From: Gimesia aquarii
GTDB lineage: Bacteria; Planctomycetota; Planctomycetia; Planctomycetales; Planctomycetaceae
Assembly: GCF_007748175.1 (NCBI RefSeq)
Contig: NZ_CP037422.1
Span: 5,658,334 to 5,722,333 of the forward strand
DNA: 64,000 bases
Reading direction: 5' to 3'
Shown here: positions 8,677 to 26,586 of the stretch, piece by piece
How positions within the stretch are numbered: the first letter of the stretch is position 1
Layout of the letters: every line of letters starts with the position of its first letter
Notes under the pieces: generated by a model
What the model was told of the DNA's origin: nothing
What the model saw: only the letters and a program-made list of their open reading frames with translations
The model's database searches: none
Translations under genes and position numbers: made by a program

Positions 8677-8706
8677 TTCTATCAGATCTTCTCTGCCAGT
8701 TGCGCA

Positions 8707-9377: not shown

Positions 9378-9701
9378 ATGACAAAAAACAAAGCGTATAA
9401 ACTAGCTGAGTTGATAATTCAAGGAGCCATTGGAAACAAGGAAGATTTTCTTTCACTGCATGGGATGGACATTGATGAACTCCCAGAATCGATAGGACAA
9501 CTTTCTCAGCTAACAGATTTAGATCTTGGTGGAAATATACTTACATCGTTGCCTGAATCATTAGGAGAACTTACTCAATTAACAGAGTTAGACCTTTCTT
9601 TAAATGATTTAGAATTGCTTCCAGAATCAATTGGCCAGCTTACTCAATTAAAAAGTTTGGTAATTGATGCCAAAACAATAATGGACCAGGTCTCTTTTTG
9701 A
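9378..9701 (+). CDS. leucine-rich repeat protein, probably 3'-truncated
   Basis: A 107-residue protein with three 23-residue leucine-rich repeats of the bacterial type (LPESIGQLSQLTDLDLGGN, LPESLGELTQLTELDLSLN and LPESIGQLTQLKSL) at about 35-100, after a 30-residue helical N-terminus. LRR proteins bind other proteins. The last eight codons (IMDQVSF and stop) are read from a copy of the dispersed CAGGTCTCTTTT repeat, so the gene was most likely cut off by recombination at that element and has lost further repeats. The DNA is more AT-rich than core genes nearby. No signal peptide. Probably a remnant. Confidence 0.65.
   Translation: MTKNKAYKLAELIIQGAIGNKEDFLSLHGMDIDELPESIGQLSQLTDLDLGGNILTSLPESLGELTQLTELDLSLNDLELLPESIGQLTQLKSLVIDAKTIMDQVSF
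9677..9700 (+). repeat. CAGGTCTCTTTT element, copy a
   Basis: AATAATGGACCAGGTCTCTT followed by TTTG. It overlaps the 3' end of the LRR frame and lies 23 nt beyond the stop codon of the minus-strand gene at 9724-10122. One of seven clear copies, all in this orientation. Confidence 0.8.
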
Positions 9702-9723
9702 CGCTCCGATTTGCAAACTAAGA

Positions 9724-10122
9724 TCATTCGATTTCATTTTCAATCCACTGCTTAAGATATTTTCTGATCTTGTGTTCGTCTTTTACGCTAGTGGTATATC
9801 CAGGGCGAAAGTTTAAATGTGTCACAACTTCGGAACGACACCAGACTTCATTTTCACAAAATCCATATGCATCGATCATTCTCTCACACTTGCACCCATC
9901 TGTGTAAATCTCAAAATGAGAAGGTAAAACGAAGGACTCAAGAAAGACTTTATTATTGTCAATATCCTCCTCTGGCAACTTATGCGCGACTGGAACTTTA
10001 TCCCCTTGCTGCCATATTAAAAGCATGCAAGGTCCATCTTTACCTTGCCAACCTTCGAGAACTGAATTGCAGGCAGGGCAATGAAGAGGTGGATCAGGAA
10101 TGTAATAATCGAACATGCCCAT
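9724..10122 (-). CDS. small cysteine-containing protein of unknown function
   Basis: A 132-residue protein starting MGMFDYYIPDPPLHCPACNS. The Cys15-X2-Cys18 knuckle, with further cysteines at 32, 77, 79, 89 and 95, suggests a zinc ribbon split along the chain. The N-terminal pattern (MGMFD, CPxC, then WQGKDGPC) is one I associate with small orphan proteins often found beside polymorphic toxins, but the function is unknown. It stands alone and is followed by a copy of the CAGGTCTCTTTT element. Cytoplasmic, no signal peptide. Confidence 0.65.
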   Translation of the reverse strand: MGMFDYYIPDPPLHCPACNSVLEGWQGKDGPCMLLIWQQGDKVPVAHKLPEEDIDNNKVFLESFVLPSHFEIYTDGCKCERMIDAYGFCENEVWCRSEVVTHLNFRPGYTTSVKDEHKIRKYLKQWIENEIE

Positions 10123-10176
10123 GAATCATATAGCCTAAACAAGAATCCTTAGATAATGAAGTCTTTTAACAGAAAC

Positions 10177-10200
10177 AATAATAGACTAGGTTTTTTTGGT
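10177..10200 (+). repeat. CAGGTCTCTTTT element, copy b
   Basis: AATAATAGACTAGGTTTTTT and TGGT; a diverged copy. Together with the gene fragment next to it, it forms one half of a direct repeat of about 260 bp with 14255-14520. Confidence 0.75.
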
Positions 10201-10210
10201 ATTCCATATC

Positions 10211-10440
10211 TCATTTCATATTGAAATCCAACGCATTACACCCATTGAATTTGGCGAATGCCAACAATTTTGATTTCATTTTTTTCTGTAATAAGCTCGG
10301 GTCCACATTTTTTTCGTAGTGAATGGATAGAATCATCAGCCTATGATTGCTTCGATCTGCTTTGCAATCGATCCGGACGACAAATCGGCTGCCCTGGAGG
10401 ACAGGCAGCGAAAAATAGCCATACTTTCGTTTGGGGCGGG
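10211..10440 (-). pseudogene. 3' fragment of a YcaQ-type DNA glycosylase gene
   Basis: This stretch matches the 3' end of the complete gene at 14291-15421. I judge the nucleotide match at roughly 85-90 percent by eye. The minus-strand frame is intact for about 75 codons (YGYFSLPVLQGSRFVVRIDC and onward) up to the stop at 10211, with mostly conservative changes. Nothing upstream encodes the rest of the enzyme, so it cannot be functional. The open frame means the copy comes from a gene that was under selection until recently, for example an allele of another strain. A short stretch reading like a membrane protein tail abuts it at 10442. Confidence 0.8.
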
Positions 10441-10441
10441 G

Positions 10442-10558
10442 TCAGCCATTGTTCTCCATCCGCTTGTTCGGTGTCCCCGCGAGAAGCCAGAAGGCGATTC
10501 CGAAGCTGAAATACTCGATGAGCAAAATAAGCCAGTTGATATCGAAGAAAAACGAGAG
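10442..10558 (-). pseudogene. possible membrane-protein gene fragment
   Basis: On the minus strand one frame reads a hydrophobic segment (NWLILLIEYFSFGIAFWLLA) followed by a short polar tail and a stop. This resembles the C-terminal transmembrane end of a lost membrane protein. It abuts the glycosylase fragment on one side and a GGGGTCAGACCC sequence on the other. The evidence is composition only. Confidence 0.3.
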
Positions 10559-10606
10559 GGGTGGAGAAAAGGGGTCAGACCCAAAAGTGTTCCCAAAGCA
10601 TTGAGA

Positions 10607-10672
10607 TCCAGAATTCGTTTTCGTGAGGTTCGTGTATTTCGTGGTTACACTAACTCATCTTTTATAAGGGAA
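10607..10672 (+). repeat. TTCGTG-type dispersed repeat, copy 2
   Basis: Second copy of the element at 6312-6370, with the additional 9-nt unit AGGTTCGTG. Same orientation. It lies in the gene-free stretch (10123-10910) before the Cys-rich operon. Confidence 0.7.
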
Positions 10673-10910
10673 ATAAATTTGACAATTCCTTGAAACCTGC
10701 GCCTGAGATTTGCAACTTCAAAAGCACTCTTTAAACCCAATACGAATAGATCAGGCCTCCTAAAGTTAACTTTAAATTAATTGTATATTAATGTTTCGTG
10801 ATAATGTGAATTTTGTACATAATGGAATTGAAATAACTGTACTGAATAAGTACATAAGATCATTTTCTGAGGCATTTGATAACCAAAATCAGAGAAAGGG
10901 TATTTTAATT

Positions 10911-11432
10911 ATGTATACATTTAAAATAGGTGGTTTTTGTTTACTGTTAACAAGCTTTATAGCAGTCACTGTTTATTGGAGCTTGGGTGTTTTGGATATT
11001 AGGACATTATATGGAGCTGGTTTGACAGCAGCAGAAAATTGTAAAGAACCATGCAGTGATACTGGTTTAACTAGTGTCATTGAGTGTGCAGACTACAAAG
11101 GTGAAGTCGGTCAATGCGAATTAGATAAGTGTTTTTTAAACACCGTACGATTGCTAAAGTGTACGCCACCACCAGGACCGGCAGGTTCAGGAAACCAAGC
11201 TTGTCAGTGGGGAGAAGACCCATTAGATTGGCAACGATGGATTATAGAGAGAGAAGATGATTGCACAGATGGTGGTCCGAATACAGATACGTTTGGAGTG
11301 TGTGAGGGATCGCCATATTCTGCTGCATACACTCCATGTACGACTAGTTCTTGTACAGGAACTCTTATTGCAGATCAAGCGTGGGAGTTAGATCGTCCTA
11401 TTTGCGGTACTCCTGGGACACCCATCCCTTAG
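10911..11432 (+). CDS. secreted or membrane-anchored cysteine-rich protein
   Basis: I place the start at the ATG at 10911, where a hydrophobic segment of about 20 residues (GGFCLLLTSFIAVTVYWSLG) begins within eight residues. A longer frame from 10791 adds 40 hydrophilic residues ahead of it. The 173-residue product has 12 cysteines after that segment, spread over 130 residues and often next to Pro, Asp or Ser, plus a PPPGP stretch. This suggests a disulfide-bonded extracytoplasmic protein. The family is not recognised. It is the first of three plus-strand genes (with 11583 and 12691) in an AT-rich module bounded by two CAGGTCTCTTTT elements. A link to the C39-like gene of the module, such as processing by it, is conjecture. 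Confidence 0.6.
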   Translation: MYTFKIGGFCLLLTSFIAVTVYWSLGVLDIRTLYGAGLTAAENCKEPCSDTGLTSVIECADYKGEVGQCELDKCFLNTVRLLKCTPPPGPAGSGNQACQWGEDPLDWQRWIIEREDDCTDGGPNTDTFGVCEGSPYSAAYTPCTTSSCTGTLIADQAWELDRPICGTPGTPIP

Positions 11433-11582
11433 AAGCATGCAATCAATAATGATGCTCTTATTATTCAAAAGAAAATCCCAATGGGACCTCGTAGTTACTA
11501 GTTAATCATAATGGAATTGTTTTAGAGAAATTGCTACTCATTTGGTCGGTCAAAATTTTTCTAGAGTTTAAGGTTACTATAA

Positions 11583-12689
11583 ATGAGATCTTTTTTCTTG
11601 TGTGTATGTATTCTAAATTTCTTTTTAGTCCCGTTAAACGCATATGAAATAGATGAATCTAATACGTTGGAGAATCTTAAAAATTATGACTCAATTTATA
11701 TGTCTGGTTTTACTGTTTCGGGAACTCGACAAAGCAAAGACCGGCACCGTCGTAGTCGTTCAGTGTTTGAAGTGAGTCGCAGCTGGAGACTGACCTTTGG
11801 TGGTGATCGTGTTGGATATTTAATGGAGGTGATCGATTACGAGAAACCAAAGTACCAAAATCCTAAATCCAGACCTAAACGCCCTAAGAAACTATCGAAT
11901 TCTGATGAAGTTTTACGAATTCCACTGAGAACCAAGCAATGGGGATATTGGGGACATGATCTCTCAGGAAATCACTATGAAGATACAGTTATTACAGTAA
12001 CTCCCAGCGGCAAAGTGACTGATACGGGAAAAATGCACAATTCATCCTTATTTGCACCTAGAGGTGAGGGACCACTTGCTCCGAGACGAGCTGTTTTGTG
12101 GTCTTTGGGCCGTTTCTTTTCAAAACATATTGATAAAGTTACTCAAGTCGAACATTCTGCAGACGGCCTTATTCGTGTATCAGCACTGGGAAAGAAAAAT
12201 GAACTGCAAGTTGGCCGGTGGGAGTTTGAGATTGAGCCTAACGCATCTTGGATGATTAGGAAAGCGCGGTTTTATCGAGATCGATATCCCGACCGCATCA
12301 ATGTAGAGATGAAAAATGAAGGAACTGTGTGGAGTGGAGCCTACTGCATTCCTAAAACAGCTACTATTAATCATTGGGGCCCAATTGGGAATGTTGAGAC
12401 AGAGTATTTCACATTTGAGCCAGTGGTCGAAAGTTTCGACGAGCAGTTATATTCTGATACTCAGCAAGCTGTTGTAGGTAACCAAATCTCAACATTAACA
12501 GTCCATGATTATCGTGTTTCACCGCCAATAGTCACTCAGCCATTCCGGCCATCCAAACAGACACCAATTACCTTAAAGAAATCTAATAGAATGTGGTGGC
12601 TAATTATTGTGAATTTGGTTGTGTTTGGTGCCATGCTAGTCTACTACATATTGTGGAAACGTCAGCAAACAAATATTAAGGATCCTTAA
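11583..12689 (+). CDS. exported single-pass membrane protein of unknown function
   Basis: A 368-residue protein with an N-terminal signal sequence (FFLCVCILNFFLVPLNA, cleavage likely near residue 20) and one C-terminal transmembrane helix (LIIVNLVVFGAMLVYYIL, about 340-358) followed by a short basic tail. The bulk is therefore extracytoplasmic and membrane-anchored. The middle has beta-rich sequence with aromatic residues and a RRSRSVFEVSRSW region. I recognise no family, though its overall form resembles planctomycete proteins of LolA/outer-membrane-sorting type. It lies 150 nt after the Cys-rich gene and 1 nt before the C39-DUF1573 gene, so the last two are almost certainly co-translated. 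Confidence 0.65.
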   Translation: MRSFFLCVCILNFFLVPLNAYEIDESNTLENLKNYDSIYMSGFTVSGTRQSKDRHRRSRSVFEVSRSWRLTFGGDRVGYLMEVIDYEKPKYQNPKSRPKRPKKLSNSDEVLRIPLRTKQWGYWGHDLSGNHYEDTVITVTPSGKVTDTGKMHNSSLFAPRGEGPLAPRRAVLWSLGRFFSKHIDKVTQVEHSADGLIRVSALGKKNELQVGRWEFEIEPNASWMIRKARFYRDRYPDRINVEMKNEGTVWSGAYCIPKTATINHWGPIGNVETEYFTFEPVVESFDEQLYSDTQQAVVGNQISTLTVHDYRVSPPIVTQPFRPSKQTPITLKKSNRMWWLIIVNLVVFGAMLVYYILWKRQQTNIKDP

Positions 12690-12690
12690 T

Positions 12691-14256
12691 ATGAAACACT
12701 TACACCTTTGGGTAATCGTGTGTGCGTGTGTTTTCATTGGTGTTTCTTCTGGCATTATATTGAGACTATTTACTACCGTTACAGATTTACCACACACAGA
12801 ACTAACATCTCAGCTTAATCCATCTGACCCCAAATATCAGGATGTGATGTGTGGTCCCGTGAGCCTGTTTGTTGCTTTGGGACTTCTTGGTATTAGTAGC
12901 TCTCAGTCGGATATTGCCTCTAAATGCAAAGTGACGCACCGAGGTGTAACTTTTGCAGAGCTAGAAAGCATTGCTAATAGTGACAGTCGGGTTAGGGCCA
13001 GGATCCAACGACTTAACTGGGATGAATTGAGCCTATTAGACGGCGTAGCAGTATTATTTGTAAAGGGGGACCATTTTATAACAGTGGACCCGCGTGAGAA
13101 ACGGTACGACATTATTAAGAGTGTTGGGTTGCGGGTTTATGAACCTAAACGCCCGGCACAGTGGTGGTCACGTGAAAAATTGGAAGGAGTATGGGATGGG
13201 GAGACTTTAGTAATTTCTTCCCAAATAATTCCTGACCACGAGATTCCTTTAGGATCATTAATCGATTGGGACAAGTGTTTTCTTGACCAAGGAATCGTAA
13301 AAGATACTCCTGTTGTTAATTATCGGTTTTCATTTTGTAATATTGGCAATAAAGACCTCATTGTTTATGAAGTTCAAACGAGTTGTGGCTGCCTAGACTA
13401 TAACCTAAGTAAAAAGCAGCTTAGTCCTGGTGAGTCTGCCCACATCGAAGTGAGACTAGACACTAAGAATAAAGAAGGATATGTAGAGCAATATGTGACT
13501 GTAAAGACAAACGAATTGAGAAATCCGATATCTATGCTGACGATGGCAGGAGGGATACCAAGAGCCCGTGTAATCTCCAGTGATGCAATTAGTTTTGAGG
13601 ATTTACCTCGGGGAAATAATACATCCAAAAAGTTTTACGTAGCCGATCCTGGATTCAACGGTGCTAAGATACTTGATACTCGTTTTGTGCCTAACCCTGA
13701 TTCAAATGTAGGAGAACATTTGAACTGTTCGATTTCCTACGAGTTGATAGGAAAGGACACCGGCCGTGTTGCATCACTCGCTGGATTCCATACTAAATCT
13801 GATGATTATGAGGTACAGGTTTCGTTTGAAGCGAATAAGATGTGTCCATTAGGTGCTTATCAAGGAGTGGTCTATATAACTCTCGAAGTTAATGGCGTCC
13901 TCAAAACACATAAAGTGTTTGTAGAAGGTGTAGTTGTGCAAGATGTACGCCCAGTCCCGCGCGTAGCATTGATTACACTTGATCCAGAAGGTACTGGTAG
14001 CGTATCTATTCAATTGCATAGCTATTCGAAACAGGAAATTCGAGTCGTAAAAATGTGGTCGGATGGCAAGAACTCATTGAAGGTTAGGCCGGAAGATGAA
14101 TCGGAATCTGCAAACAAAAAGTATGTAATTACGGCGCAGACCTCCGACATTGTTGCTGGTACTGCTCCCGTAAATCAAACTGTCGTATTTATGCTCGAGG
14201 GGGGGGCTGAGGTTTCTGTGCCTGTAGCTTTATTTATGCCACCAAAAACAAATTAA
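12691..14256 (+). CDS. membrane-anchored C39-like peptidase fused to DUF1573
   Basis: A 521-residue protein. An N-terminal membrane anchor (residues 6-27) is followed by a papain-like C39 domain: Gln50, Cys54 in MCGPVSLF, His128 in GDHFITVDP and Asp133, so the catalytic triad looks complete. From about residue 207 comes DUF1573 (NIGNKDLIVYEVQTSCGC at 217-234), an immunoglobulin-like domain common in planctomycete and Bacteroidetes surface proteins. A second beta-rich region fills the rest. C39 domains normally cut double-glycine leaders inside ABC transporters; here no ATPase or transporter is attached, and the peptidase faces outward. Last gene of the three-gene module; its stop overlaps the next repeat element. 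Confidence 0.75.
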   Translation: MKHLHLWVIVCACVFIGVSSGIILRLFTTVTDLPHTELTSQLNPSDPKYQDVMCGPVSLFVALGLLGISSSQSDIASKCKVTHRGVTFAELESIANSDSRVRARIQRLNWDELSLLDGVAVLFVKGDHFITVDPREKRYDIIKSVGLRVYEPKRPAQWWSREKLEGVWDGETLVISSQIIPDHEIPLGSLIDWDKCFLDQGIVKDTPVVNYRFSFCNIGNKDLIVYEVQTSCGCLDYNLSKKQLSPGESAHIEVRLDTKNKEGYVEQYVTVKTNELRNPISMLTMAGGIPRARVISSDAISFEDLPRGNNTSKKFYVADPGFNGAKILDTRFVPNPDSNVGEHLNCSISYELIGKDTGRVASLAGFHTKSDDYEVQVSFEANKMCPLGAYQGVVYITLEVNGVLKTHKVFVEGVVVQDVRPVPRVALITLDPEGTGSVSIQLHSYSKQEIRVVKMWSDGKNSLKVRPEDESESANKKYVITAQTSDIVAGTAPVNQTVVFMLEGGAEVSVPVALFMPPKTN

Positions 14257-14280
14257 TAATAGACCAGGTCTCTTTTTGGT
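14255..14280 (+). repeat. CAGGTCTCTTTT element, copy c
   Basis: AATAATAGACCAGGTCTCTT then TTTGGT. It begins in the stop codon of the C39-DUF1573 gene and ends 10 nt before the stop codon of the opposing glycosylase gene. The flanks AATA(GA)CC and GGTATT can pair around the conserved loop. Confidence 0.85.
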
Positions 14281-14290
14281 ATTCCATATC

Positions 14291-15421
14291 TCATTTCACG
14301 TTGAATTCCACTGCGTTGCATCCATTGAATTTGGCGAATGCCAATAATTTTGATTTCATTTTTTTCTGTAATAAACTCTGATCTACATTTTTTTCGTAGT
14401 GAATGGATTGAACGATCAGCTTGTGCTTGCTTCGATCTGCTTTGCAATCGATCCGGGCAACAAAGCGGCTGCCCTGGAGGACCGGTAGCGAAAAATAGCC
14501 ATACTTTCTTTTGGGTGCAGGAACGTAGCATTCAATCTTATAATCAAAATCAAACAAGGTGATCAGCTTATTTCTTTGAATGATCAAATTGTCAAACGGG
14601 GATAGAATGTGAATTTTAGGGCCGACTCTGGGGATGTTCTCTAATGCTTGTCTGAGAGCAAAATAAGGCTCGTCAACTCCTTCTACGGCGACTTGTGATA
14701 TCTCTCCCGCGGCCACCATTTCGTTGAGGGTCGTCAAAACGGTTTTCTTGGTTTGCGCTTTGCGCATGTAGGCAATTTCGCTTACAGAGGCTAATCCATG
14801 ATGCTGCAGCGTTCTTTGAATCAGAAATCGGGCATAGTCGGTTTCGCTGGGTAGTGTCGTGTCTACAGAACCGGGAATCACATTCTCGGGGAGATCGTAT
14901 ACTTTCTGAAACCCTTCTCGGCGGGTAATTTCCAGCTTGCCTTCAAGAAACAGTCTCTCTAACGCTTTTTTGGCTGGTTTCCAATCCCACCATCCCGATT
15001 TGCCTTTCTTTGTCATCTCAAAGTCTTTGGATCGCAGCGGACCTTCTTTGCGGATCCTGGTTAAAACCTGTTTCATCATTTTCAGGTCTTTGGGGTACCA
15101 GGAAGCCTCGCGTTTTTGAAATTCTTTCTTCAGTGGTAAAGAATACCGGTAGTCTTTCATCGGCAGGTAAGAGGCGGCATGACTCCAATACTCAAACGCA
15201 TCTCGTGATTCAATGAGATTGTCCAGGTCGGTTGGACTGTATTTTGGGTTTCGACTCCAGAACACATGGTGATGAGCACGTTCCACGACAGAGATGGTAT
15301 CAATCTGAACGTACCCCAGATGCTCAATGATTTGCACGGGATCTAAAGCGGGTCCTGTCAGCTTCTGACTAGCCACCATCAAACGCTGTGCGGATTTCAA
15401 TGGCAACTTGATGGTTTTCAT
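14291..15421 (-). CDS. ycaQ: YcaQ/AlkZ-type DNA glycosylase, winged-helix family
   Basis: This 376-residue protein belongs to the HTH_42 family of winged-helix DNA glycosylases; E. coli YcaQ unhooks interstrand crosslinks and N7-alkylated guanine. The catalytic Q-hydrophobic-D motif is present as Gln39-Ile40-Asp41 in GYVQIDTISVVERAHHHVFW. Other family segments are visible, including AFEYWSHAASYLP near residue 97 and ILSPFDNLIIQR near 270. The length is close to that of E. coli YcaQ. It sits alone on the minus strand within the mosaic region. Its 3' end plus the adjacent repeat element is duplicated, in diverged form, at 10177-10440. Self-resistance to a natural genotoxin is known for relatives, but no biosynthetic cluster is seen here. 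Confidence 0.88.
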   Translation of the reverse strand: MKTIKLPLKSAQRLMVASQKLTGPALDPVQIIEHLGYVQIDTISVVERAHHHVFWSRNPKYSPTDLDNLIESRDAFEYWSHAASYLPMKDYRYSLPLKKEFQKREASWYPKDLKMMKQVLTRIRKEGPLRSKDFEMTKKGKSGWWDWKPAKKALERLFLEGKLEITRREGFQKVYDLPENVIPGSVDTTLPSETDYARFLIQRTLQHHGLASVSEIAYMRKAQTKKTVLTTLNEMVAAGEISQVAVEGVDEPYFALRQALENIPRVGPKIHILSPFDNLIIQRNKLITLFDFDYKIECYVPAPKRKYGYFSLPVLQGSRFVARIDCKADRSKHKLIVQSIHYEKNVDQSLLQKKMKSKLLAFAKFNGCNAVEFNVK

Positions 15422-15650
15422 CTCGGGGATTTTTTAGAGAACCTAAAAGAATAATTGATCGACACAATCAGGCATCGTTCATTCTGCACCTGCCTGAGAA
15501 TGATAAAGTTGCGTAGAACACGTCAACGAGAGCGTAGAAAACGAAGTGTGAAACCTCAAGTAAGAACTTGACTTCGATTCTCTTTTTCCTAAAAACAATT
15601 TCTTTATTGTTAAGATGGAAAAAAGAAACCAGGATTCTTTAATTCAGAAA

Positions 15651-15686
15651 AAATTATTGGATCAGGTCTCTTTTAGGTATCCGCAA
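15651..15686 (+). repeat. CAGGTCTCTTTT element, copy d
   Basis: AAATTATTGGATCAGGTCTC, then TTTTAGGTATCC. Here GGAT pairs with ATCC across the conserved loop. It is 22-28 nt beyond the stop codon of the VOC gene, in the same orientation as the other copies. The rest of 15422-15707 shows no gene. Confidence 0.75.
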
Positions 15687-15707
15687 AGCATCGAACCACT
15701 ATTGGGG

Positions 15708-16079
15708 CTACTTTCGGAAGGGTTCACCGAATAGAATCTCGTTGCCGTCGGGATCAGAGAGATTAAAGTCCCGCAGACCATATGGTGAGTCTTCGATCTT
15801 TCGTGTAATCTTCGCACTCGCAGCAATACAGGCCTCGTACAGAGCGTCCACATTGGTGACAAATACACAACATCTATTCGACCCCGCCTTATCGCCATCA
15901 CGATCAAGAGCGAGGTGGATGGTGACATCGTCTCGATGAAGCGTTGCATACACAGGGGGATCGGCTTCCAGGTAGCCAGGTTCACAGCCCAGAACACATT
16001 TGTAGAATTCAAGCGAGCGAAGTATGTCTCGGACTAACAGGCATGGCGCGGCACTGTTGAATCTCGCTGTGTCAGGCAT
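15708..16079 (-). CDS. VOC (glyoxalase/bleomycin resistance) family protein
   Basis: A 123-residue single VOC domain: the N-terminal strand-helix FNSAAPCLLVRDILRSLEFY, a middle strand pair, and the C-terminal DFNLSDPDGNEILFGEP with the usual metal-binding Glu. VOC proteins bind a metal and either act on small substrates (glyoxalase, dioxygenase) or sequester drugs. The specific substrate cannot be told. It is a single-gene module between two repeat elements. Confidence 0.85.
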   Translation of the reverse strand: MPDTARFNSAAPCLLVRDILRSLEFYKCVLGCEPGYLEADPPVYATLHRDDVTIHLALDRDGDKAGSNRCCVFVTNVDALYEACIAASAKITRKIEDSPYGLRDFNLSDPDGNEILFGEPFRK

Positions 16080-16345
16080 GTCGTGCTCCTGTACGAAAGG
16101 GAAAACAAAACCAACTCTGTAAAGATTTTGGCGGCGTACTGATTTTCATGCCTTCTACTCAGAACGCGCAAAGAGAGAACTCATTTTAGAGGCATCAATT
16201 TACAACGTCAATTGACAACTGTAGCGCCCTTTTAAATGAACGACTTCGAGTTACAAGGTATCTTTATCCTCACCAATTACTGCAGAATAATTATGAAATA
16301 ATAAGAGACAAAGTTTTTTGTAGAACTTTGATTAGTGGCCCGATA

Positions 16346-16500
16346 TCAGCAATCGCCGGTATCACAAGATGGGTTGCCTTCTGCCTTGCACTTGAGTATG
16401 TTTCCCTGTCTGTCGAACAGGAACTGGCAGCACTCTTTCGGCATCGTTTCAAGAGTTTTGCGGCCGCGTTGGACTTGGGATTTTGTTCCGAAGAGAAATA
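16346..16500 (-). pseudogene. 3' fragment of a SigZ-like sigma factor gene
   Basis: The minus strand encodes an open C-terminal piece ending in KAEGNPSCDTGDC and stop. It matches the last 45-50 codons of the complete sigma factor gene at 24666-25244, with substitutions such as MPKECCQFLFDRQGN for MLKECCQFQFDKQGN. Upstream of about 16487 the similarity continues with a frameshift and then stops. It lacks the core-binding and DNA-binding regions and must be inactive. The rest of 16080-16712 holds no gene that I can support. Confidence 0.8.
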
Positions 16501-16712
16501 AGGGACAGCCTCCCTTAAATTGAACTGAGGCGCGTCTGAATTGATAAAATTACAAAAGTGACCGAGATGGGAAAACCAGAACATGTTTCAGGGCCTATTC
16601 GTTCTGTAAATATGGCTTGGCTGATTTTTTGACGTTAGTGATTCGCCACTCCGCTCTATGGACCTGTTGGGCCACATTTGCGCGGTGACGAACAGCTTTG
16701 AGTACCCTCTTG

Positions 16713-17540: not shown

Positions 17541-17825
17541 CTTTAGTGGCCCAACTTGAATGAGACTGAATGATTTCTTACAACCCAGTAAGAGTAGGGT
17601 TAGTGGAATTTTGTTTAATCAAGATTGGATTGTCAAGAAAATATTGAGGGAGCAGATCTTACAACGCTCATATTTTCTGAATCCAGAAATACAGCTAAGT
17701 TGACATGACAGGGCGACAAGTTAGCAAAGACTGACGATCGGGATCATTGGGCAGCGAGAGTTGACGTTGATTTAATAAAGTCACGCACCACTGTCGTTCC
17801 GTGTGCTTCCAATCGCTCGCCATCT

Positions 17826-18494: not shown

Positions 18495-18916
18495 ATCTGG
18501 GTCCCTTTGATCCGAACGACTGCTGAGACACAAACAGGACAAAAAAGAGGCGAATTTTAAAGAAATGACTCTTCGATTTACAAAGATCTTGCCTCAGTCC
18601 TATTTTATACCTGAATTTGAATCTCATGTGTCTGAAAAACTCATCCTGAACATCAAATTTCACTTAACTTATTTAGCCAGTTGGTATCTAAAAGACTGAA
18701 ACCGAGAAAACATCAATATCCAGGAGAGTAAAAAGAGGGAGGCCCCCCTCAATGTTTCTCCGTAAAGTCCAAATCGAAAACTGTGACTCAACTGTATCAG
18801 AAAATTCTGATATATTCTTCTGAAAGTTGAAAATGGATGTCCACAAATTTCATGAGTAGAGCGGCTGTTATATTAAAGAGAGTTCGATCTCTGTCTGATT
18901 ATGCTGTGAGGTTCAT
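18495..18916. other. divergent intergenic region
   Basis: About 420 nt between the exported peptidase and the ECF sigma gene. A short GAGGG/CCCTC inverted repeat at 18735-18750 is the only structure I see. It is not followed by a T-tract. No gene. Confidence 0.4.
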
Positions 18917-19444: not shown

Positions 19445-19457
19445 ATCGGAGAGTCTC

Positions 19458-21053
19458 ATGACATCTGACAATGGCAGACCGACCCCCCTCAATTCAATCC
19501 TTGACCAAATATCGAACGACCCCGTACCGGCTCATGTGGAATCTCGGCTTCGGCCACAGTTTGATGTCCTTCGTCGCCGATTGAGTTCCCAGCCTGATGT
19601 AACTTCTCCCTCTGTCATTCCTGCAAATTGGTCTCGTCTGCCAGTTCTGGTGAGTGGAATCGTAGTCGCTTCACTGTTGATTGTTTCTCTGTTCTTCACG
19701 CTGGGTAATAAAGATGCCTGGGCACAGGTCGTCAAAGCTGTGCAAGCTAAGCCCTGGATGCGGGGTATCATCAAAGATTCCCAAGGGCAGAAGCGAGTCG
19801 AACTCTGGTTCTCCCCAAACAGTGATGTTGTCGCATTAAAATCCGGGCAGACCGCCCGGTATGCTGATTTACGAAAACAGCATACCTATGAGTACAAACC
19901 GAAAGAGAACCTCATCTATCTTGTCGGCACCCGGAAAGACGATCGCGAACGTTTGGCTTTTCAGAACACCTTGTTTCAGGCATTTTCGCATTTGAATCAA
20001 CAGATTGTGCAACCCAAATCTCAGATAAAGATTGTCAAACAATCACAGCAGGAAGTTCAGGAGGGGAACCATCGCTGGATCGATTATAGGTTTGAAATCA
20101 ATGACCCTGCTCGTACTCCCAATGAATATCGCGTCACATTTCGTGTTGATGCGAAATCGAGTCTCCCGCGTTCCATGGAAGAGGAGTTTTTTGTCGAAGG
20201 AAAAAACAGGATACGGAAGATCGAATTTGATTATCCCAATACTGGCCCTGCCGACATCTATGCACTGGGCGTACCCAGAACAGCCAAACTGGTAGATCGT
20301 CTACCATCGGGGAACCTGGTCAAAATTCTCACAAATGTTGAGGAAATGCGTCGGAGGCCGATGGAGTCTTATTCTGCTGTCGTCTTGCAATCAATCACGC
20401 GAAATAATGGTCAGAGACAACTTGTTAATGCCTATCGAGTTCTTAGAAATGGATTGGACCTTGAGATTAAGCAGGTTGATCCCGAGGAACTGCTTGCATT
20501 CCAAATGAAAGTCTATTCCACCAAACATATCGATCCACCCGACGACGTCGATTTGACCTTGTGGTGGAAAGAGCAGGTGGCAAATCTGACTTTTTCTGAT
20601 GTCCCAACATCTGATTCAACCTTAGAATCGTTGGTTGCGTCTTATAAGTACATATTACCCGAATTCGCTGGCTATCCTGCTATGGGAGGAGAACCAAATG
20701 CGAATCGGAAAGTCTCGGTCACTAATGGGTCTGATTTGGTTACGGTACGAGTTCAAACAAATTATGAAACGCCTGTAGAATATGCCTACTGGATCGACCG
20801 GACGCGAGGTCACACGGTCATTCGCTCAGAACAGGAAGATACCGCAAACAAGGAACAGAATGGATGGATACATACGACAGTGATCGACAAACTGAAGAAA
20901 TCTCCCAAGGGACGCTGGTATGCCACCCAGGCACGCCGCGGAATGGTCGAAAATACCGGTGACGAATTATCTGACGGAATAGGAGTCGCTCCTGTCTCTA
21001 CAACCACCAGCCACTACTTTGTGGAGTTCCAAGACGATCCCGATGCAAAATGA
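19458..21053 (+). CDS. membrane protein co-encoded with ECF sigma factor
   Basis: Starting at the ATG at 19458 (an open frame reaches back into the sigma gene but has no role), the protein has 531 residues. A cytoplasmic segment of 60 residues precedes one transmembrane helix (61-83, LPVLVSGIVVASLLIVSLFF), and a large outer part follows, beginning AWAQVVKAVQAKPWMRG. This WA-V-A-W pattern is common in planctomycete proteins next to ECF sigma genes, some of which resemble LolA-like lipoprotein carriers. No zinc-type anti-sigma motif is seen. An anti-sigma role is inferred from topology and position only. Confidence 0.75.
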   Translation: MTSDNGRPTPLNSILDQISNDPVPAHVESRLRPQFDVLRRRLSSQPDVTSPSVIPANWSRLPVLVSGIVVASLLIVSLFFTLGNKDAWAQVVKAVQAKPWMRGIIKDSQGQKRVELWFSPNSDVVALKSGQTARYADLRKQHTYEYKPKENLIYLVGTRKDDRERLAFQNTLFQAFSHLNQQIVQPKSQIKIVKQSQQEVQEGNHRWIDYRFEINDPARTPNEYRVTFRVDAKSSLPRSMEEEFFVEGKNRIRKIEFDYPNTGPADIYALGVPRTAKLVDRLPSGNLVKILTNVEEMRRRPMESYSAVVLQSITRNNGQRQLVNAYRVLRNGLDLEIKQVDPEELLAFQMKVYSTKHIDPPDDVDLTLWWKEQVANLTFSDVPTSDSTLESLVASYKYILPEFAGYPAMGGEPNANRKVSVTNGSDLVTVRVQTNYETPVEYAYWIDRTRGHTVIRSEQEDTANKEQNGWIHTTVIDKLKKSPKGRWYATQARRGMVENTGDELSDGIGVAPVSTTTSHYFVEFQDDPDAK

Positions 21054-21074
21054 ACGGTGTCGCAAAGCAAAAAT

Positions 21075-21100
21075 AATAATGAACCAGGTCTCTTTTGGGG
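21075..21100 (+). repeat. CAGGTCTCTTTT element, copy e
   Basis: AATAATGAACCAGGTCTCTT then TTGGGG. Flanks GAACC and GGTTT can pair around the loop. It lies 22 nt after the preceding plus-strand gene and before the BlaI operator region; there is no minus-strand gene here. Confidence 0.8.
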
Positions 21101-21170
21101 TTTTGTTTACACGACACGGATGCAGACAGTGTCTCGGCTGTCGTTGTTGTTCGATCAATAAGCTGATAAT

Positions 21171-21221
21171 ACGACATTTGTCGTTTTTAGTGTTGACATA
21201 AAGACATTTGTCGTTATTAAT
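21171..21221 (+). promoter_or_regulatory. promoter with two BlaI/MecI-type operators
   Basis: Two near-identical partial palindromes, ACGACATTTGTCGT (21171-21184) and AGACATTTGTCGTT (21202-21215), lie 30 bp apart, about three helical turns. They resemble the TACA-n2-TGTA operator of BlaI/MecI. A TTGACA box (21193-21198) and a TATTAA box (21215-21220) are spaced by 16 bp, so the second operator covers the spacer. Repression by the adjacent BlaI-like protein is the simple reading. The predicted transcription start falls at or just before the ATG at 21228. Confidence 0.75.
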
Positions 21222-21227
21222 GGAAGA

Positions 21228-21644
21228 ATGAATCATCAAAAAGAAAAAATTCCGGATGCCGAACGCGATGTTCTAGTCTGTCTCAATCAGTTGAAAGAAG
21301 CCACTGTCAAAGAGATCTGTGAAGCGCTGAGGACAGTTCGGAAGATGGAACCCTCTTCCGTCATGACGTTATTGAAACGGTTGGAGTCCAGAAAACTCGT
21401 CACTAAACGCAAGGCTGATAAAGGCAAGGCGTTTCTCTTCCGCTCGACTCCAGAGTCAACTCAAGCATACAGGCATCTGATGAACGACTTGTTTCAAGGC
21501 GTTTTTGGTGGTGATACGCTCTCGTTTATGGCTTCGTTCTTCGAAACACGTAAGCCGACAGAAGAAGAAATCGAACAGCTGCATCAACTCCTTGACGATG
21601 TTCGGACCAAAAAGCAAAAGTCGAAAAAGAAGGGGAACCAGTGA
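21228..21644 (+). CDS. BlaI/MecI/CopY-type transcriptional repressor
   Basis: A 138-residue winged-helix repressor: residues 8-80 match the penicillinase-repressor domain (ERDVLVCLNQLKEATVKEIC, VMTLLKRLESRKLVTKRK), followed by a C-terminal dimerisation part (LMNDLFQGVFGGDTLSFMAS) and a Lys-rich tail. It overlaps the M56 gene by 4 nt and lies directly behind two palindromic operators, so autoregulation of the pair is likely. In the beta-lactam systems the M56 partner triggers cleavage of the repressor; the signal here is unknown. Confidence 0.92.
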   Translation: MNHQKEKIPDAERDVLVCLNQLKEATVKEICEALRTVRKMEPSSVMTLLKRLESRKLVTKRKADKGKAFLFRSTPESTQAYRHLMNDLFQGVFGGDTLSFMASFFETRKPTEEEIEQLHQLLDDVRTKKQKSKKKGNQ

Positions 21645-24595
21645 TGAACGTTCTCAATAAAACTGCCAATGAATTGAGCCATATCATCCTGCACGCCAGT
21701 TGGCAGGCAGCGCTCATCGCAGGATTCGTGTTCGTTTTATTAATTTTGACACGTCGGATCATGAGCTCACAACTTCGATATGCACTTTTGCTCGTAGTCC
21801 TGGTAAAATTCGTGACACCACCATTCTTGGATCTCCCCACCGGTGTCATCTCGCACTACTCGCCCATTCGTTCCACAGTAGTCAGCTCTGAAACGATCTA
21901 TTTGGTTGACTCAGCAACGACGAATGCTTCAGCAACTTCACAACACAGCAATCACACCGAAAATAAATTCCCCCTGGTCGCAGTGAAGCCTGATATCACA
22001 ATCACCGAACCTGGTTCAAATCGTTCAACTATGCTTGAAGTCTCAAAGCCAAAGACAGAATTCCCATGGTCAACTCTGTTGATGTCCATCTACTTGTTCG
22101 GTACAGCAGTCTTTGTAGCATTACTAATTCATCGCTATCGATTAGTACGACAAATTATGCGAGAAAGTGACATCCAGAGCGACGGAGTTTTGTGGTCTGA
22201 ACTAAAAAGAATCTCGAAACAATTAAAAATGAAATCGCTTCCGGAATTGCGCATCTCAGACAAAACAGACGCGCCATTCGCGATGGGAGCGTTCCGACCG
22301 GTCATTGTCATGCCGCGTCTCATTGCAGAAGAATTGCAACCGGATCAACTTACCATTGTGATGGCACATGAACTGGCTCATATCCATCGGCGTGATCTAT
22401 TAATTGGCTGGTTCGAAACTCTGGTGAATATTCTCTGGTGGTTTCATCCAGCGATGTGGTGGCTCAGAAAATCTCTGCGAGAGACCCGCGAAGATTGCTG
22501 TGATGATATCCTGCTAGCCAATCAACTTGCCAACCCAGATCGCTACTGTGAAACGTTGATCGATGCCGCAAGCCGACAATCAACCAAATTGGCGGAACCG
22601 CTGGTTCTAGGGTTTGTACACCGAGAACATCCCATCGCCCGACGGATTCGCCGCCTGATGGATGGTTCTCTCTTCAGAGCAGATCGCTTGCGTTTTCCAG
22701 CCATCATCCTGACTCTACTTTTGGCTCTCATCATGCTACCCGGTATGCGGCCCGAGCGTCAGTCTGTAACTAAAACAACACTGGAAGGACTATTCGGTTG
22801 GACGAATCTTTCGTTTCAGATCGATGCCAGCGAAGAAGCGACCATTAACGAATGCCGAAAGATAGCCCAGACATACTTCAGCATGAGTAGTTACAAAAGA
22901 ATATTCTCTCAATTGGAAACACGTGTGAGATTAGAGGCAATTTTGGATGAGCACCCGAAATGTTTTTACGCACAGTATCTGCTTGGAACCTGGTACCGTC
23001 TGAACGGCGATCTCGAACTTTCGACCCAACTTTTGAATGAGTCGCTAGCCAATGCTCCGGTTGTTCTTTCACAAAGATATAGACTCGGCAATGGTAAGCC
23101 AATTCGAGGAGTCGAAATTTCTGAGATAGAAATTGAGTGCAATCGAGTTCAGAATCACTCTTTGGATCCCAGTCTGAATTTGAAGTTTGTGGGCTTGATC
23201 ACTGATTCAAAAGGCATGGTCCACCTGCCAGTCTACGACACCGTATATCGCATCAGCACTCAGTCATATCCCGAAGGTTATTATGCAGAATTCAAAAATC
23301 TCGGCTGGTTTAAGTCGAACTCACTGAATGGCGAATTACCAGATGTCATGGTCTGGCGGCCCTGGTCACAACCCCGAAATTTCACAGGCACGGCCGCCGA
23401 GTCTAAGTGGCTTAACAACGCGAGAGGAACAGACACACGCGAACTCACATCAGGGCCTAATTCGTACAAGCTGGGAGGAATCGCACGCAGTCAGGCTGAC
23501 GGCACATTCACAATTGAAAACGGAAAAGGAAAAAGCCTGCCTTCGCTCCAGACAGAATTACCAGATATCAAAAATGCGAAATTTATGGATCACGCCTTGG
23601 TCAATCTTTCAGAACCGGCGCCATCACGTTTTGAGATTGCAGAGGTGCAATTTCTTGATTCACAGACAAAGATTCCTCTGCAATCGTTTCAGAGCGGCGC
23701 AGGCTTTACCTGGACAGACAAATCGAACATTCACTTATTCTCAATCTGGGATACGTTGCCCAATATTGTCGACCTTGTTCTGAAAGTCTATAACTATGAC
23801 GAAAATATCTTCCGCTACAAAATTCAGCCAAAAGTCGGCGCAACCGCGCAACATGCAGGAGCTTCATTCAAAATCACACATCTGACCGCGGGAAACCATA
23901 GCGGCTGGAGTTCAAGAGATGGGTTTTATGGAGAAGCGCAGAGTCTCAGTAGCACATCTGAGATGATCGTTGACATCACGGGAAGCAAGCAGTCGCGTTT
24001 TTCGCTATGGGTTGTGTCGAAGGACGGACGCAGGCAGAATCTAAAGGAAGGTTGGTTCTCTATCAGTGTTGGCAGCTCACCAATTCGTATCATGATGCCA
24101 CTGCATGAAATCGACCACTTTGAACTGCTGCCTTACGTCAAGCCAGTGTCGATCTACTTTGAAAAGATCCAGTTGCCTGCTCGTAAAACCCCTTTGGAAC
24201 AACAATTGCCTGTAATCGAGTTTCCCATCGGAGGCACCGCTCGCAACATGACATCAGATCTGTTTAGCCCGTTGCTCGTGAATTTCGAAAGTCAGCGAGG
24301 AAATGTCTTCTCTGGTTGTGGTAGCAGAATGAGAGGCTTTGAGCTGAGAGAGCGTCCGGAAGAGGAACGCTCTCCAGAAACCAAATCAACAGTGATGTGG
24401 AATTACTGGGCTAACATTAAAATGAATCACCAGTTGGACTTCACTTTCAAGTCTGGCACAGCAAAGAAGGGCGGACGCAGTTCCTATAACTGTAGCGGAG
24501 CTTGGGGTGTGGTTAACGTAGCTTCGTTGAACAAACCTTTAGAATCGATTGATACCGTTCGTTTACAATTCCTGCCGAAGACAGCCGACGACTAG
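21641..24595 (+). CDS. BlaR1/MecR1-like M56 membrane metallopeptidase
   Basis: A 984-residue protein. Four hydrophobic segments (about 20-38, 45-62, 145-164, 355-373) surround a cytoplasmic M56 peptidase with the zinc motif HELAH at 243-247 and the downstream Glu in RETREDCCDD near 284. The pair with a BlaI-like repressor is the usual signal-responsive unit. Unlike BlaR1, the large C-terminal region (about 380-984) shows no penicillin-binding domain. It has a TPR-like stretch near 440 and then beta-rich sequence of unknown type, so the inducer need not be a beta-lactam. Confidence 0.88.
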   Translation: MMNVLNKTANELSHIILHASWQAALIAGFVFVLLILTRRIMSSQLRYALLLVVLVKFVTPPFLDLPTGVISHYSPIRSTVVSSETIYLVDSATTNASATSQHSNHTENKFPLVAVKPDITITEPGSNRSTMLEVSKPKTEFPWSTLLMSIYLFGTAVFVALLIHRYRLVRQIMRESDIQSDGVLWSELKRISKQLKMKSLPELRISDKTDAPFAMGAFRPVIVMPRLIAEELQPDQLTIVMAHELAHIHRRDLLIGWFETLVNILWWFHPAMWWLRKSLRETREDCCDDILLANQLANPDRYCETLIDAASRQSTKLAEPLVLGFVHREHPIARRIRRLMDGSLFRADRLRFPAIILTLLLALIMLPGMRPERQSVTKTTLEGLFGWTNLSFQIDASEEATINECRKIAQTYFSMSSYKRIFSQLETRVRLEAILDEHPKCFYAQYLLGTWYRLNGDLELSTQLLNESLANAPVVLSQRYRLGNGKPIRGVEISEIEIECNRVQNHSLDPSLNLKFVGLITDSKGMVHLPVYDTVYRISTQSYPEGYYAEFKNLGWFKSNSLNGELPDVMVWRPWSQPRNFTGTAAESKWLNNARGTDTRELTSGPNSYKLGGIARSQADGTFTIENGKGKSLPSLQTELPDIKNAKFMDHALVNLSEPAPSRFEIAEVQFLDSQTKIPLQSFQSGAGFTWTDKSNIHLFSIWDTLPNIVDLVLKVYNYDENIFRYKIQPKVGATAQHAGASFKITHLTAGNHSGWSSRDGFYGEAQSLSSTSEMIVDITGSKQSRFSLWVVSKDGRRQNLKEGWFSISVGSSPIRIMMPLHEIDHFELLPYVKPVSIYFEKIQLPARKTPLEQQLPVIEFPIGGTARNMTSDLFSPLLVNFESQRGNVFSGCGSRMRGFELRERPEEERSPETKSTVMWNYWANIKMNHQLDFTFKSGTAKKGGRSSYNCSGAWGVVNVASLNKPLESIDTVRLQFLPKTADD

Positions 24596-24615
24596 TATCC
24601 TAGATGATAGAGTAG

Positions 24616-24652
24616 ATCATAATGGACCAGGTCTCTTTTGGGTTCCATAATG
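24616..24652 (+). repeat. CAGGTCTCTTTT element, copy f
   Basis: CATAATGGACC, loop AGGTCTCTTTTG, then GGTTCCATAATG. The arms pair over about 11 bp with one mismatch and one bulge, the best hairpin of the family. It sits 14-24 nt beyond the stop of the SigZ-like gene and after the M56 gene. Confidence 0.85.
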
Positions 24653-24665
24653 CGTCTCCCCCATA

Positions 24666-25244
24666 TCAGCAATCGCCGGTATCACAAGATGGGTTACCTT
24701 CTGCTTTGCATTTGAGAATGTTTCCCTGTTTGTCGAACTGGAACTGACAGCACTCTTTCAGCATCGTTTCAAGAGATTTACGGCCACGTTGAATTCGGGA
24801 TTTTGCGCCGGAAAGGGAAATCGATTCGCGCTCGGCGATCTCTTTTTGTGAAATGCCTTCCAGTTCATACATCGAGACGGCCCGCTTTTGATCTTCAGGT
24901 AAATGGTCAATCAAAGCGGTCAGGCAACCGGCAACTTCTGTGTTCAGATTCTCGACGCTTTTCATTTCGGCAACTACGTTCTGCGCGAGGTCATCATTTG
25001 GCACATCTCGTTTTTTGCGAAAATGATCAATCACGGCATTACGTGTGATTTGAAAGACCCAGGCTTCCAGCCGCTCGATTTGGTGGAGGTCCTCGATCTT
25101 TTGATGAATGCGGAGGAACACCGTTTGTAAAATGTCATCCACATCCGTTGCTGAATTCACGCGTGACCTGACAAACTGGCGCAGCCGATCACTCAGCTCG
25201 CGCCAGATTTGTTCGGTTGTGATGTGGGAGCTCTGGTCTTTCAT
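24666..25244 (-). CDS. sigZ: SigZ-like ECF sigma factor with Cys-rich tail
   Basis: From the ATG at 25244 the protein has 192 residues. Region 2 (TDVDDILQTVFLRIHQKIED and LEAWVFQITRNAVIDHFRKK) and region 4 (EISQKEIAERESISLSGAKSR-like helix-turn-helix) are clear. The C-terminal tail holds six cysteines (CCQFQFD, LKC, PSC, GDC), a feature of the SigZ group. It may bind metal or sense redox state, which is an inference. The start is 2 nt after the stop of the 49-residue Cys-rich protein, so the two are translationally coupled. A fragment of a second copy lies at 16346-16500. Confidence 0.88.
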   Translation of the reverse strand: MKDQSSHITTEQIWRELSDRLRQFVRSRVNSATDVDDILQTVFLRIHQKIEDLHQIERLEAWVFQITRNAVIDHFRKKRDVPNDDLAQNVVAEMKSVENLNTEVAGCLTALIDHLPEDQKRAVSMYELEGISQKEIAERESISLSGAKSRIQRGRKSLETMLKECCQFQFDKQGNILKCKAEGNPSCDTGDC

Positions 25245-25246
25245 TG

Positions 25247-25396
25247 CTAGCAGCAACCCGATTGATCAGATTGAGAATGCACTTTGTTTGGGCAACAACA
25301 TTGTGCAGCACAACAACAAATACAGCAACAGTGGATTGTACAACACGCGCTGTTTTCATCACACTTAGAACTGTCTTCATTCGTTTGGTCAGTCAT
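25247..25396 (-). CDS. 49-residue protein with 14 cysteines
   Basis: The ATG at 25396 is preceded by a strong ribosome binding site (AAGGAG, 5 nt spacing), so this very small gene is probably real. Fourteen of 49 residues are cysteine, in runs CC, CCC, CCC, CCC and CC, with an acidic N-terminus (MTDQTNEDSSKCDENSACC) and a Pro-Asn-Lys linker. The stop lies 2 nt before the SigZ-like start, so both form an operon. Likely roles are metal or thiol buffering or sensing for the sigma factor, but this is inferred from composition alone. Not a known metallothionein pattern (no regular CxC spacing). Confidence 0.7.
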   Translation of the reverse strand: MTDQTNEDSSKCDENSACCTIHCCCICCCAAQCCCPNKVHSQSDQSGCC

Positions 25397-25611
25397 TTTT
25401 TCTCCTTTTCGAATTCGTGAAAATGGGACAGTTATTCGTCCCGTCACACATAGAGACGTACTAAATTCGAAAAAGACGCAACTCTGACCAGTTTTTTTGT
25501 CAAAGTTCTTCTTGTTGAAGGGAACGATTTAATCTTCGTTTAACAAGATAATAATGAGACGGATCTCTAGTAAGTATCTTACGATTACCGCGCGCGATCC
25601 ACTGCATCGTT

Positions 25612-26187
25612 TCACGCGCCGGGTATCTCTTTTTTTCGGGAGAATGGCCACCAGGATCGCTTTGGACCGATGCGGTTAAGAACTTGCCAGGGTTCAGGGA
25701 CAGTATCTGGAATGTCTTCATTATAGCGAACCCCTCCCAGTGTAACGAACAATTCGATGGGAATATCAAAAATGTAATCTGTGTCTGTCACGCCATTCTG
25801 TTCCGCAAACAGGCGATCGCGTATTGCGGTGAGTTGATCGGGAACTGCTCCCGTCGTTTCAAGATGAGTAAGCCCCTGCTGGGCATCATGCCAGACGGAC
25901 CATTGCTCTGTACCATTGAACCACGATGAAACATAGCAGTCCATTATGGTCTCGTTCGCGTAGCAGGCGAGCAGCGCTGCATTTTCTGACAAACGAGCGA
26001 ATACTTTTTCATTTGGAGTAATATCATCGTTGACATACAAGAGATACGCGCCATTCGGAAGAAACGCGCCCGTAACAGGGGATTCCGCAATCTCTTCATA
26101 TTGTCCCGTGGGGGTGACACGATATTCTGAATGAATCGTTTCTTCGTCCTTTCCAGTGACAGCAATGAGGAGAACACGATAGCCCAT
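25612..26187 (-). CDS. protein of unknown function, 191 residues
   Basis: Soluble, acidic protein without signal peptide or membrane segment. Segments SPVTGAFLPNGAYLLYVND and FDIPIELFVTLGGVRY are well ordered and codon use is gene-like. The last 20 residues are basic (KRSWWPFSRKKE). I do not recognise the family. It is alone on the minus strand in the mosaic region. A degenerate trace of the repeat element may lie 40-60 nt downstream of its stop. Confidence 0.65.
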   Translation of the reverse strand: MGYRVLLIAVTGKDEETIHSEYRVTPTGQYEEIAESPVTGAFLPNGAYLLYVNDDITPNEKVFARLSENAALLACYANETIMDCYVSSWFNGTEQWSVWHDAQQGLTHLETTGAVPDQLTAIRDRLFAEQNGVTDTDYIFDIPIELFVTLGGVRYNEDIPDTVPEPWQVLNRIGPKRSWWPFSRKKEIPGA

Positions 26188-26586
26188 TTGAAGAGATCTC
26201 TTTGAGGAATGACTTATAGTTCACTTCTACGTAGTAGTTTATGATGTCCACATGTTATTAAAATATGCAATACTTTTTAGTGATTAAATTAGACGCCTAT
26301 TCGAATTAATAATGAATCAGGTCTAATTTTAATTACGCGATACTTCGGCTTCTTTCTTACTCCTGGAATTATAACCGGAGTTCACGGCACAACAGAGGTC
26401 ATTTGAAAAAAGAGCGAGGTATTACTCGACATGGAAGCGAAATATGAGATCAAAATTGTCGGCGGCGTTTATGACATGTACACCAGCGAAGTCACATTGC
26501 TCGAAGAAGACTCGAAGAGTTGAAATGAAAAGTGTTCGGGTAACCTGAGTCGCCCGAACACTTCACTCGTGCCACGCTTGGTGGTC
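26188..26586. other. intergenic stretch with repeat copy g and a tiny frame
   Basis: About 400 nt without a supported gene. Copy g of the CAGGTCTCTTTT element (AATAATGAATCAGGTCTAAT, 26307-26330) lies here, with a weaker loop match. A 30-codon plus-strand frame (26431-26523, MEAKYEIKIVGGVYDMYTSE) reads like a small protein fragment but has no clear ribosome binding site. A hairpin at 26531-26562 closes the stretch. Confidence 0.45.
26531..26562 (-). terminator. hairpin terminator of the receiver gene; ninth GGGTAA palindrome
   Basis: AGTGTTCGGG pairs perfectly with CCCGAACACT (10 bp, 12-nt loop). On the minus strand it is followed by TTTTC and lies 25 nt after the receiver gene stop, so it can act as a terminator. 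Its inner bases (GGGTAA) mark it as a member of the palindrome family of 6.5-9.3 kb. Confidence 0.7.

Follow-up and report, generated by a model that had tools for sequence, protein, structure and literature searches.

Palindromic repeats in an accessory island of Gimesia aquarii as candidate border sites of an integron-like cassette array

The planctomycete Gimesia aquarii carries, within the 64,000-nucleotide stretch of contig NZ_CP037422.1 analysed here (positions 5,658,334 to 5,722,333; hereafter the window), a row of accessory genes interspersed with copies of a short palindromic repeat that we refer to as the border site. The array lies at 5757..36132, between recJ (3991-5754) and a gene at 36133-40470. 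At 12/12 other Gimesia loci compared, the homology to recJ stops at 5726-5766 and homology resumes at 36129-36140, the intervening DNA not exceeding 50 nt; because recJ directly adjoins the 36133 gene at all of these loci, 5757-36132 is an accessory island. Base composition does not separate the island from its right side (G+C 0.444 and 0.450, respectively, with 0.491 on the left). Collinearity between the genome G002 and the window extends to 6331, and the array at the same place in G002 has partly different content.

The border site spans ~35-45 nt and consists of a left arm, a conserved centre (TAATGGACCAGGTCTCTTTT) and a right arm. Copies of its 22-base consensus start at 9677, 10177, 14255, 15653, 21075, 24618 and 26308, all on the forward strand, with 0, 5, 1, 3, 0, 1 and 3 mismatches, respectively. 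These are the seven same-strand copies that an earlier note on this DNA had described, with three starts shifted (15651 to 15653, 24616 to 24618 and 26307 to 26308). Two further traces in that note, near 16298 and 25548, are weak: the DNA after the trace at 16298..16319 is a remnant of the 3' end of a sigma-factor gene reaching to ~16500, and the trace at 25548..25569 lies within a 1-kb segment (~25498-26523) that is absent from G002.

Each site has its own surroundings. Site 1 (9677..9698) matches the consensus exactly, and an LRR open reading frame (ORF; 9378-9701) reads into it, so that the site encodes the final residues TIMDQVSF and the stop codon; this ORF may have been cut by the border. 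Site 2 (10177..10198) is more degenerate than the others and is followed by a remnant of the 3' end of a glycosylase gene, up to ~10441. Site 3 (14255..14276) belongs to a glycosylase cassette on the reverse strand (14250..15647) that comprises the site and an AlkZ-like DNA glycosylase gene (14291-15421), while site 4 (15653..15674) is followed by a glyoxalase/VOC gene (15708-16079, reverse strand). Site 5 (21075..21096), again an exact match, precedes BlaI-like (21228-21644) and M56 (21641-24595) genes, both on the forward strand. Just upstream of the BlaI-like gene, at 21164-21222, a 29-base sequence occurs twice in direct orientation, the copies being 79% alike and each containing a short inverted repeat around GACATTTGTC; this is possibly the operator of that gene. 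Site 6 (24618..24639) forms a sigma-factor cassette (24609..25497, reverse strand) with the gene at 24666-25256, and site 7 lies at 26308..26329. The earlier note had placed five copies 10-28 nt beyond a minus-strand stop codon, which holds roughly: the stops of minus-strand ORFs lie 26, 15, 34 and 27 nt beyond sites 9677, 14255, 15653 and 24618, the match to the glycosylase remnant after site 10177 extends to 10214, and there is no minus-strand stop codon near sites 21075 and 26308.

The proteins of the island are a varied collection. NUDIX and DUF4304 proteins are encoded to the left of the first site; the remainder includes LRR, DUF1573 with C39 peptidase, AlkZ-like glycosylase, glyoxalase/VOC, SUKH, C39_2, extracytoplasmic function-type sigma factors, BlaI-like with M56, a response regulator, DinB and some proteins without matches. 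Arrays in relatives add DUF4274, a GIY-YIG protein with a PD-T4-3 match, a DPP-IV/S9 peptidase and a Clp_N protein. The AlkZ-like glycosylase gene is present in 8/17 Gimesia genomes, all of them among the 11 that bear the site, and in G012 only its 3' end is kept, beside a site. Across 34 sites in the window and its relatives, the right-hand ORF turns its 3' end to the site in 24 cases and the left-hand ORF in 14; at the other 10 sites the right-hand gene faces the opposite way, and some modules contain several genes.

The site is rare and clustered. When the 22-base consensus AATAATGRACCAGGTCTCTTTT was searched with up to 3 mismatches in the whole 7,218,541-base genome, 7 places were found, 6 of them in the array (9677-26329, all on the forward strand) and 1 elsewhere on the reverse strand, while a reversed-pattern control gave 0 matches. 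Clear copies are thus not spread through the genome; an even spread in core genes was one of the outcomes that the earlier note had named as refuting. The clustering also disfavours a dispersed mobile element. Within the window, CAGGTCTCTTTT occurs exactly five times, always on the forward strand, from 9687 to 24639; allowing up to 2 mismatches there were 16 matches against 6.97 expected, a number reached in 0/100 shuffles. The short core by itself is a misleading search probe, because 11 of the 18 exact genomic copies of this 12-base sequence are part of a different repeat, GGGGTCAGGTCTCTTTT, one of the 11 being in a variant of it; a further 5 are in the array and 2 are isolated. Eight of the GGGGTCAGGTCTCTTTT copies form four inverted pairs, 705-717 bases apart.

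A sequence-only model of the site, trained on 26 copies, identified it (E ≤0.01) in 11/397 genomes of the class, all Gimesia, and hence in 1/185 genera; since the model refinds its own training copies, these scans test absence elsewhere and not presence here. An exact 20-base pattern matched one record among public species genomes, also a Gimesia (uncultured; records near the window's genome may be omitted there), and had 0 matches in viral contigs. In each genome clear copies are found mainly at one locus and in a single direction, a pattern seen again in G002, G010 and G003. The draft genomes of G003 and G010 each have one extra copy on another contig; the extra G003 copy (contig 55) is inside an ORF of 230 amino acids and may not be a border, and the copies at L049 13748 and in L060 also lie within small ORFs. 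Two G003 sites and four of the five G014 sites were picked up in preselected loci by a less stringent scan, which allowed up to 7 mismatches and also gave one stray match in 20 kb of G007. Among open-licence papers, no title on such arrays in Gimesia was found.

Comparison between species places the ends of several homologous blocks at the site. The glycosylase block (window 14255-15647) corresponds to G002 13801-15193; it ends in the window 6 bases before the next site, and in G002 it continues into different DNA. In both genomes the sigma-factor block (window 24609-25497, G002 15899-16786) begins 9 bases ahead of its site. A DPP-IV-like block shared by G010 (3287-5551) and G003 (11394-13659) likewise ends 6 bases before the next G010 site. 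Over 13 loci, 271 homology endpoints, 87 of them near a site, collapsed to 149, of which 30 lay between -25 and +30 relative to the start of a site; uniform placement would yield 2.35, with a maximum of 9 in 5000 draws, although the excess is overstated because comparisons overlap and the null is uniform.

Remnants consisting of a site and only the 3' end of a gene were observed at five places: 10177-10441 (glycosylase) and 16298-16500 (sigma factor) in the window, L050 5751 (G003), L048 12894 (G002; a weak, 87-base match at 76% identity) and L051 10596. In 4/5, among them both window remnants and those of G002 and G003, the gene concerned is also present as a full copy further right in that region.

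One locus occurs in two states. Its left and right flanks are common to G007 and G014; G007 has one site between two blocks that in G014 stand ~3.5 kb apart, separated by extra genes. The G014 array has five sites in the same direction (6635, 7426, 8733, 9444 and 10127 in the reverse complement of L059) with one ORF between each pair, and a search of the whole G014 genome for an 18-base core with up to 2 mismatches gave 6 matches, 3 of them within 2.7 kb in the array and on one strand. G007 tracks the G014 left flank to GAGCACTG and then follows the right-hand G014 site together with its left arm, its own site and left arm (GATCATTGAAAT) matching the right-hand GATTATTGAAAT of G014. Because G007 leaves the left flank at GAGCACTG and carries the left arm of the right-hand site, the switch point appears to fall ~8 bases ahead of AAATGGACC and not in the conserved core. 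Plain homologous recombination between two sites should instead place it inside the core that they share.

The flanks of the site also seem to pair. The earlier note had proposed a kept fold with matched changes, and what stands of this is that the flanks of a copy pair better with each other than with those of other copies. As the spacing of the arms is not constant, a permutation test was used in which each left flank was compared with its own right flank and with the right flanks of other copies. For 30 copies (the 34 minus 4 near-identical glycosylase copies) the mean duplex energy was -6.89 with own flanks and -5.50 (sd 0.39) with permuted ones (z -3.54; 0/3000 permutations), while 19 controls with one or both arms shifted outward gave z values of -1.31 to +2.10. 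An earlier run had returned 0/2000 for all 34 copies and 1/2000 for the 30. Examples of pairing flanks are AAGCAATAA/TTGTTGCTT (G010 3263), AAGTAATAA/TTGTTACTT (G002 12894) and AACAATAA/TTATTGTT (G013). The flank pairing is likely to be real, though it is not proven. The conserved portion of the site is the centre of the palindrome and not its ends; the inner stem has 4 pairs, and the right part is T-rich.

A search for the enzyme that might act on these sites gave one lead. Weaker tyrosine-recombinase matches are present in 17/17 Gimesia genomes and, among the matches listed, none is in an array region. Y1 transposases of the HUH type occur in 14/17 Gimesia genomes. Y1 units (RAYT/TIRYT-like; loci L001-L009 and L016-L018) with inverted AAAGGGGTCAGGTCTCTTTT-type ends are found at G000:C1:816168-816900, 823661-824393 and 6752022-6752755, and near 387134 and 3018053; Y1-transposase matches fall inside the GGGGTCAGGTCTCTTTT inverted pairs, whose coordinates match Y1 genes in G000. 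At up to 1 mismatch, AAAGGGGTCAGGTCTCTTTT-type ends are present in 9/17 Gimesia genomes, and many of these matches read CAGGACTC. The array sites themselves do not flank a Y1 gene. The Y1-unit ends share CAGGTCTCTTTT, a 12-nt identity, with the border site and often an AATAA arm as well, which makes Y1 the best candidate and the shared CAGGTCTCTTTT the sole sequence lead to an enzyme. A Xer/dif-type site was set aside on spacing: the ATAA and TTAT halves of the border site are 13 nt apart, whereas dif half-sites are separated by 6.

Taken together, the results suggest an integron-like cassette array with the repeats as its border sites, a reading whose chances we put at about even. It is favoured because the sites share one orientation and one main cluster, because many homologous blocks have an end at the site and because of the locus with one site in G007 and five in G014; the last of these and the layout are what make the array appear to work like an integron cassette array. 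The cassette unit would be one border site together with the gene, or small operon, that follows on its right; in most cases this is a gene with its 3' end against the site. We infer that such units are gained and lost through an enzyme acting in trans. It may cut close to the outer margin of the left arm, and would recognise the site in the form of a single-stranded hairpin, in the way that IntI recognises attC or Y1 HUH enzymes their end hairpins. A bolder proposal, which we regard as rather unlikely, is that the array represents a second, independent cassette-array platform whose non-attC hairpins would be acted on in trans, either by an HUH Y1 (RAYT/TIRYT-type) transposase or by another, unrecognised single-strand recombinase.

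Several results weigh against a cassette array. The endpoint statistics ignore the preference of endpoints for intergenic DNA, the glycosylase unit supplies many of the 30, and 119/149 endpoints are not at a site. Borders in relatives, which the earlier note had expected to coincide with the element, do so in several cases, but the DPP-IV-like and glycosylase blocks of G003 have no site and start 24-34 bases past the usual site start; no motif was seen at the opposite end of units. The G007/G014 comparison is a single case in which gain is not distinguishable from loss, and the position of the switch rests on 12 bases at this one locus. In the G014 array, 10127 alone is a clear site, with 3 mismatches to the 22-mer; the other four each have 6-7. 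At up to 3 mismatches the 18-base pattern has 55 matches in the G014 genome compared with 31 for its reversed form. A fourth G014 match (482841), 4.3 kb on, is inside a transposase-like ORF (L059:16446-17000) and was not counted; it appears chance-like, and this ORF is part of an adjacent HTH_32 and rve_3 pair (L059 15918-17000), ~3 kb from the G014 array, that is likely to be an insertion-sequence transposase of the DDE type.

Other results weigh against folding or against the presence of a known enzyme. Flank pairing is less pronounced in subsets: 7/2000 without G014 and G007, 62/2000 for the 18 copies of the window, G002, G010 and G003 arrays, and 36/2000 with outer flanks only. A simple stem score was marginal (222/5000 for 30 copies, 444/5000 for 24), with shifted controls at 802, 71 and 417 of 2000, one of them as low, and the glycosylase series alone was weak (264/5040). 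Single-copy DNA folding reached z ≤-1.5 in just 2/20 copies, remaining above -1.5 in 18/20. Covariation, for which the earlier note had named a negative test beforehand as refuting, was not significant in the standard test: on the ungapped alignment 76.3% of cells were paired versus 75.7% after shuffling (161/500 as high) and RNAalifold predicted 0 pairs, and the plain covariation claim was dropped. No match to TIGR02249 (integron integrase) exceeded the cut-off in any of the 17 Gimesia genomes, and no tyrosine or serine recombinase was present among 50 array-region proteins scanned with Pfam, a subset of the ORFs. Finally, no Y1 gene was found in the array-bearing G003, and Y1-type ends were not found in G002, G010, G016, G014 or G007. 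Because of these absences the Y1 connection is kept as no more than a lead, and that a Y1 transposase acts on the border sites is doubtful.

The known systems that come closest each share part of the architecture. Integrons are the best-known store of single-gene cassettes behind a folded single-strand site, and a decayed integron array is one explanation to be considered here: a cluster of attC sites lacking integron-integrases (CALIN) in which the attC boxes have been lost along with the integrase. As in integrons and CALINs, the Gimesia sites are inverted repeats in direct orientation, arranged in an array between unrelated accessory genes or small operons (also in G014), often with the 3' end of a gene at the site; the length of the array varies at one locus, and no integrase was seen nearby. 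Planctomycetes are, moreover, among the taxa for which an attC model is reported to have been made (PMC8352920). By the box and integrase tests, however, this is not an integron. The Gimesia site is ~35-45 nt long, conserved at its centre rather than its ends, and 10/34 right-hand genes are reversed and some modules multi-gene. The ends of attC carry RYYYAAC and GTTRRRY boxes, whereas in the Gimesia sites these motifs occur at no fixed offset common to more than 2/30 sites on either strand. The lack of an integron integrase above cut-off carries less weight, since a CALIN needs none. We consider a decayed integron improbable. The suggestion in the earlier note of a cassette-type border distinct from attC accordingly keeps its support from the blocks with an end at the site, the G007/G014 locus and the absence of fixed boxes, and is weakened by the two G003 modules without a site.

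The serious rival, although we judge it somewhat unlikely, is that the sites are repeats of the repetitive extragenic palindromic (REP) or terminal inverted repeat (TIR) type, a Gimesia relative of the RAYT (REP-associated tyrosine transposase)/TIRYT unit ends that became inserted beside the 3' ends of genes in an island undergoing recombination. Module borders would then coincide with repeats because ordinary homologous or illegitimate recombination joins foreign DNA there. The 12-nt identity and similar arms of the Y1-unit ends fit this explanation, as do the two G003 modules lacking a site, and, as in REP/RAYT systems and TIRtrons, the site is a short palindrome often downstream of genes; REPs are reported mainly downstream of coding regions, between unidirectional or convergent ORFs, in Planctomycetes among others (PMC3733652). 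The same paper describes REPs as high-copy repeats that in many families lie close to one another and in opposite orientations (PMC3733652). By copy number and orientation the Gimesia site is not a normal REP family: it is few-copy (7 in one array, all on the forward strand), forms one main cluster per genome and has no transposase visible inside the array. The GTAG/CGTC tags and the GGGGWSAS motif, the latter reported for some TIRs, as defined in PMC3733652, are not seen in the site majority consensus. The apparent switch outside the shared core in G007/G014 is also unlike homologous recombination between repeats, with the reservation that it depends on 12 bases. Ordinary transcription terminators at gene ends would explain the T-rich right part and the gene 3' ends near the site, on one or both sides. 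They are very improbable, as none of the 7 sites was among 25 terminator-like matches in 9400-27000, the inner stem has just 4 pairs, and a forward-strand T run could serve the left-hand forward genes (14/34) but not the right-hand reverse genes (24/34); terminators would, moreover, be expected throughout the genome and not in one array.

The gene content also recalls the recombinase-associated interbacterial defence (rAID) clusters of Bacteroidales, which are rows of accessory, partly immunity-like genes (here SUKH, DUF4304 and LRR). Those clusters adjoin a tyrosine recombinase, and none was seen here. Separately, a long hairpin repeat of ~100 bases, GTGAGCGG...GGCGCTAGCC...GGTGGCTAGCGCC...CCGCTCAC, is present in G001, G004 and G012 (L053 2622-2724, with similar copies in L051 and L055); it is unrelated to the border site, although one copy ends shortly before one.

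If the repeats do delimit cassettes, an unrelated family of sites with the array logic of integrons would suggest that cassette storage evolved more than once; it would also provide a small, testable site-enzyme pair and hint at an overlooked route of gene exchange in planctomycetes. If they instead belong to the REP/TIR family, such repeats would be tied directly to the borders of exchanged modules.

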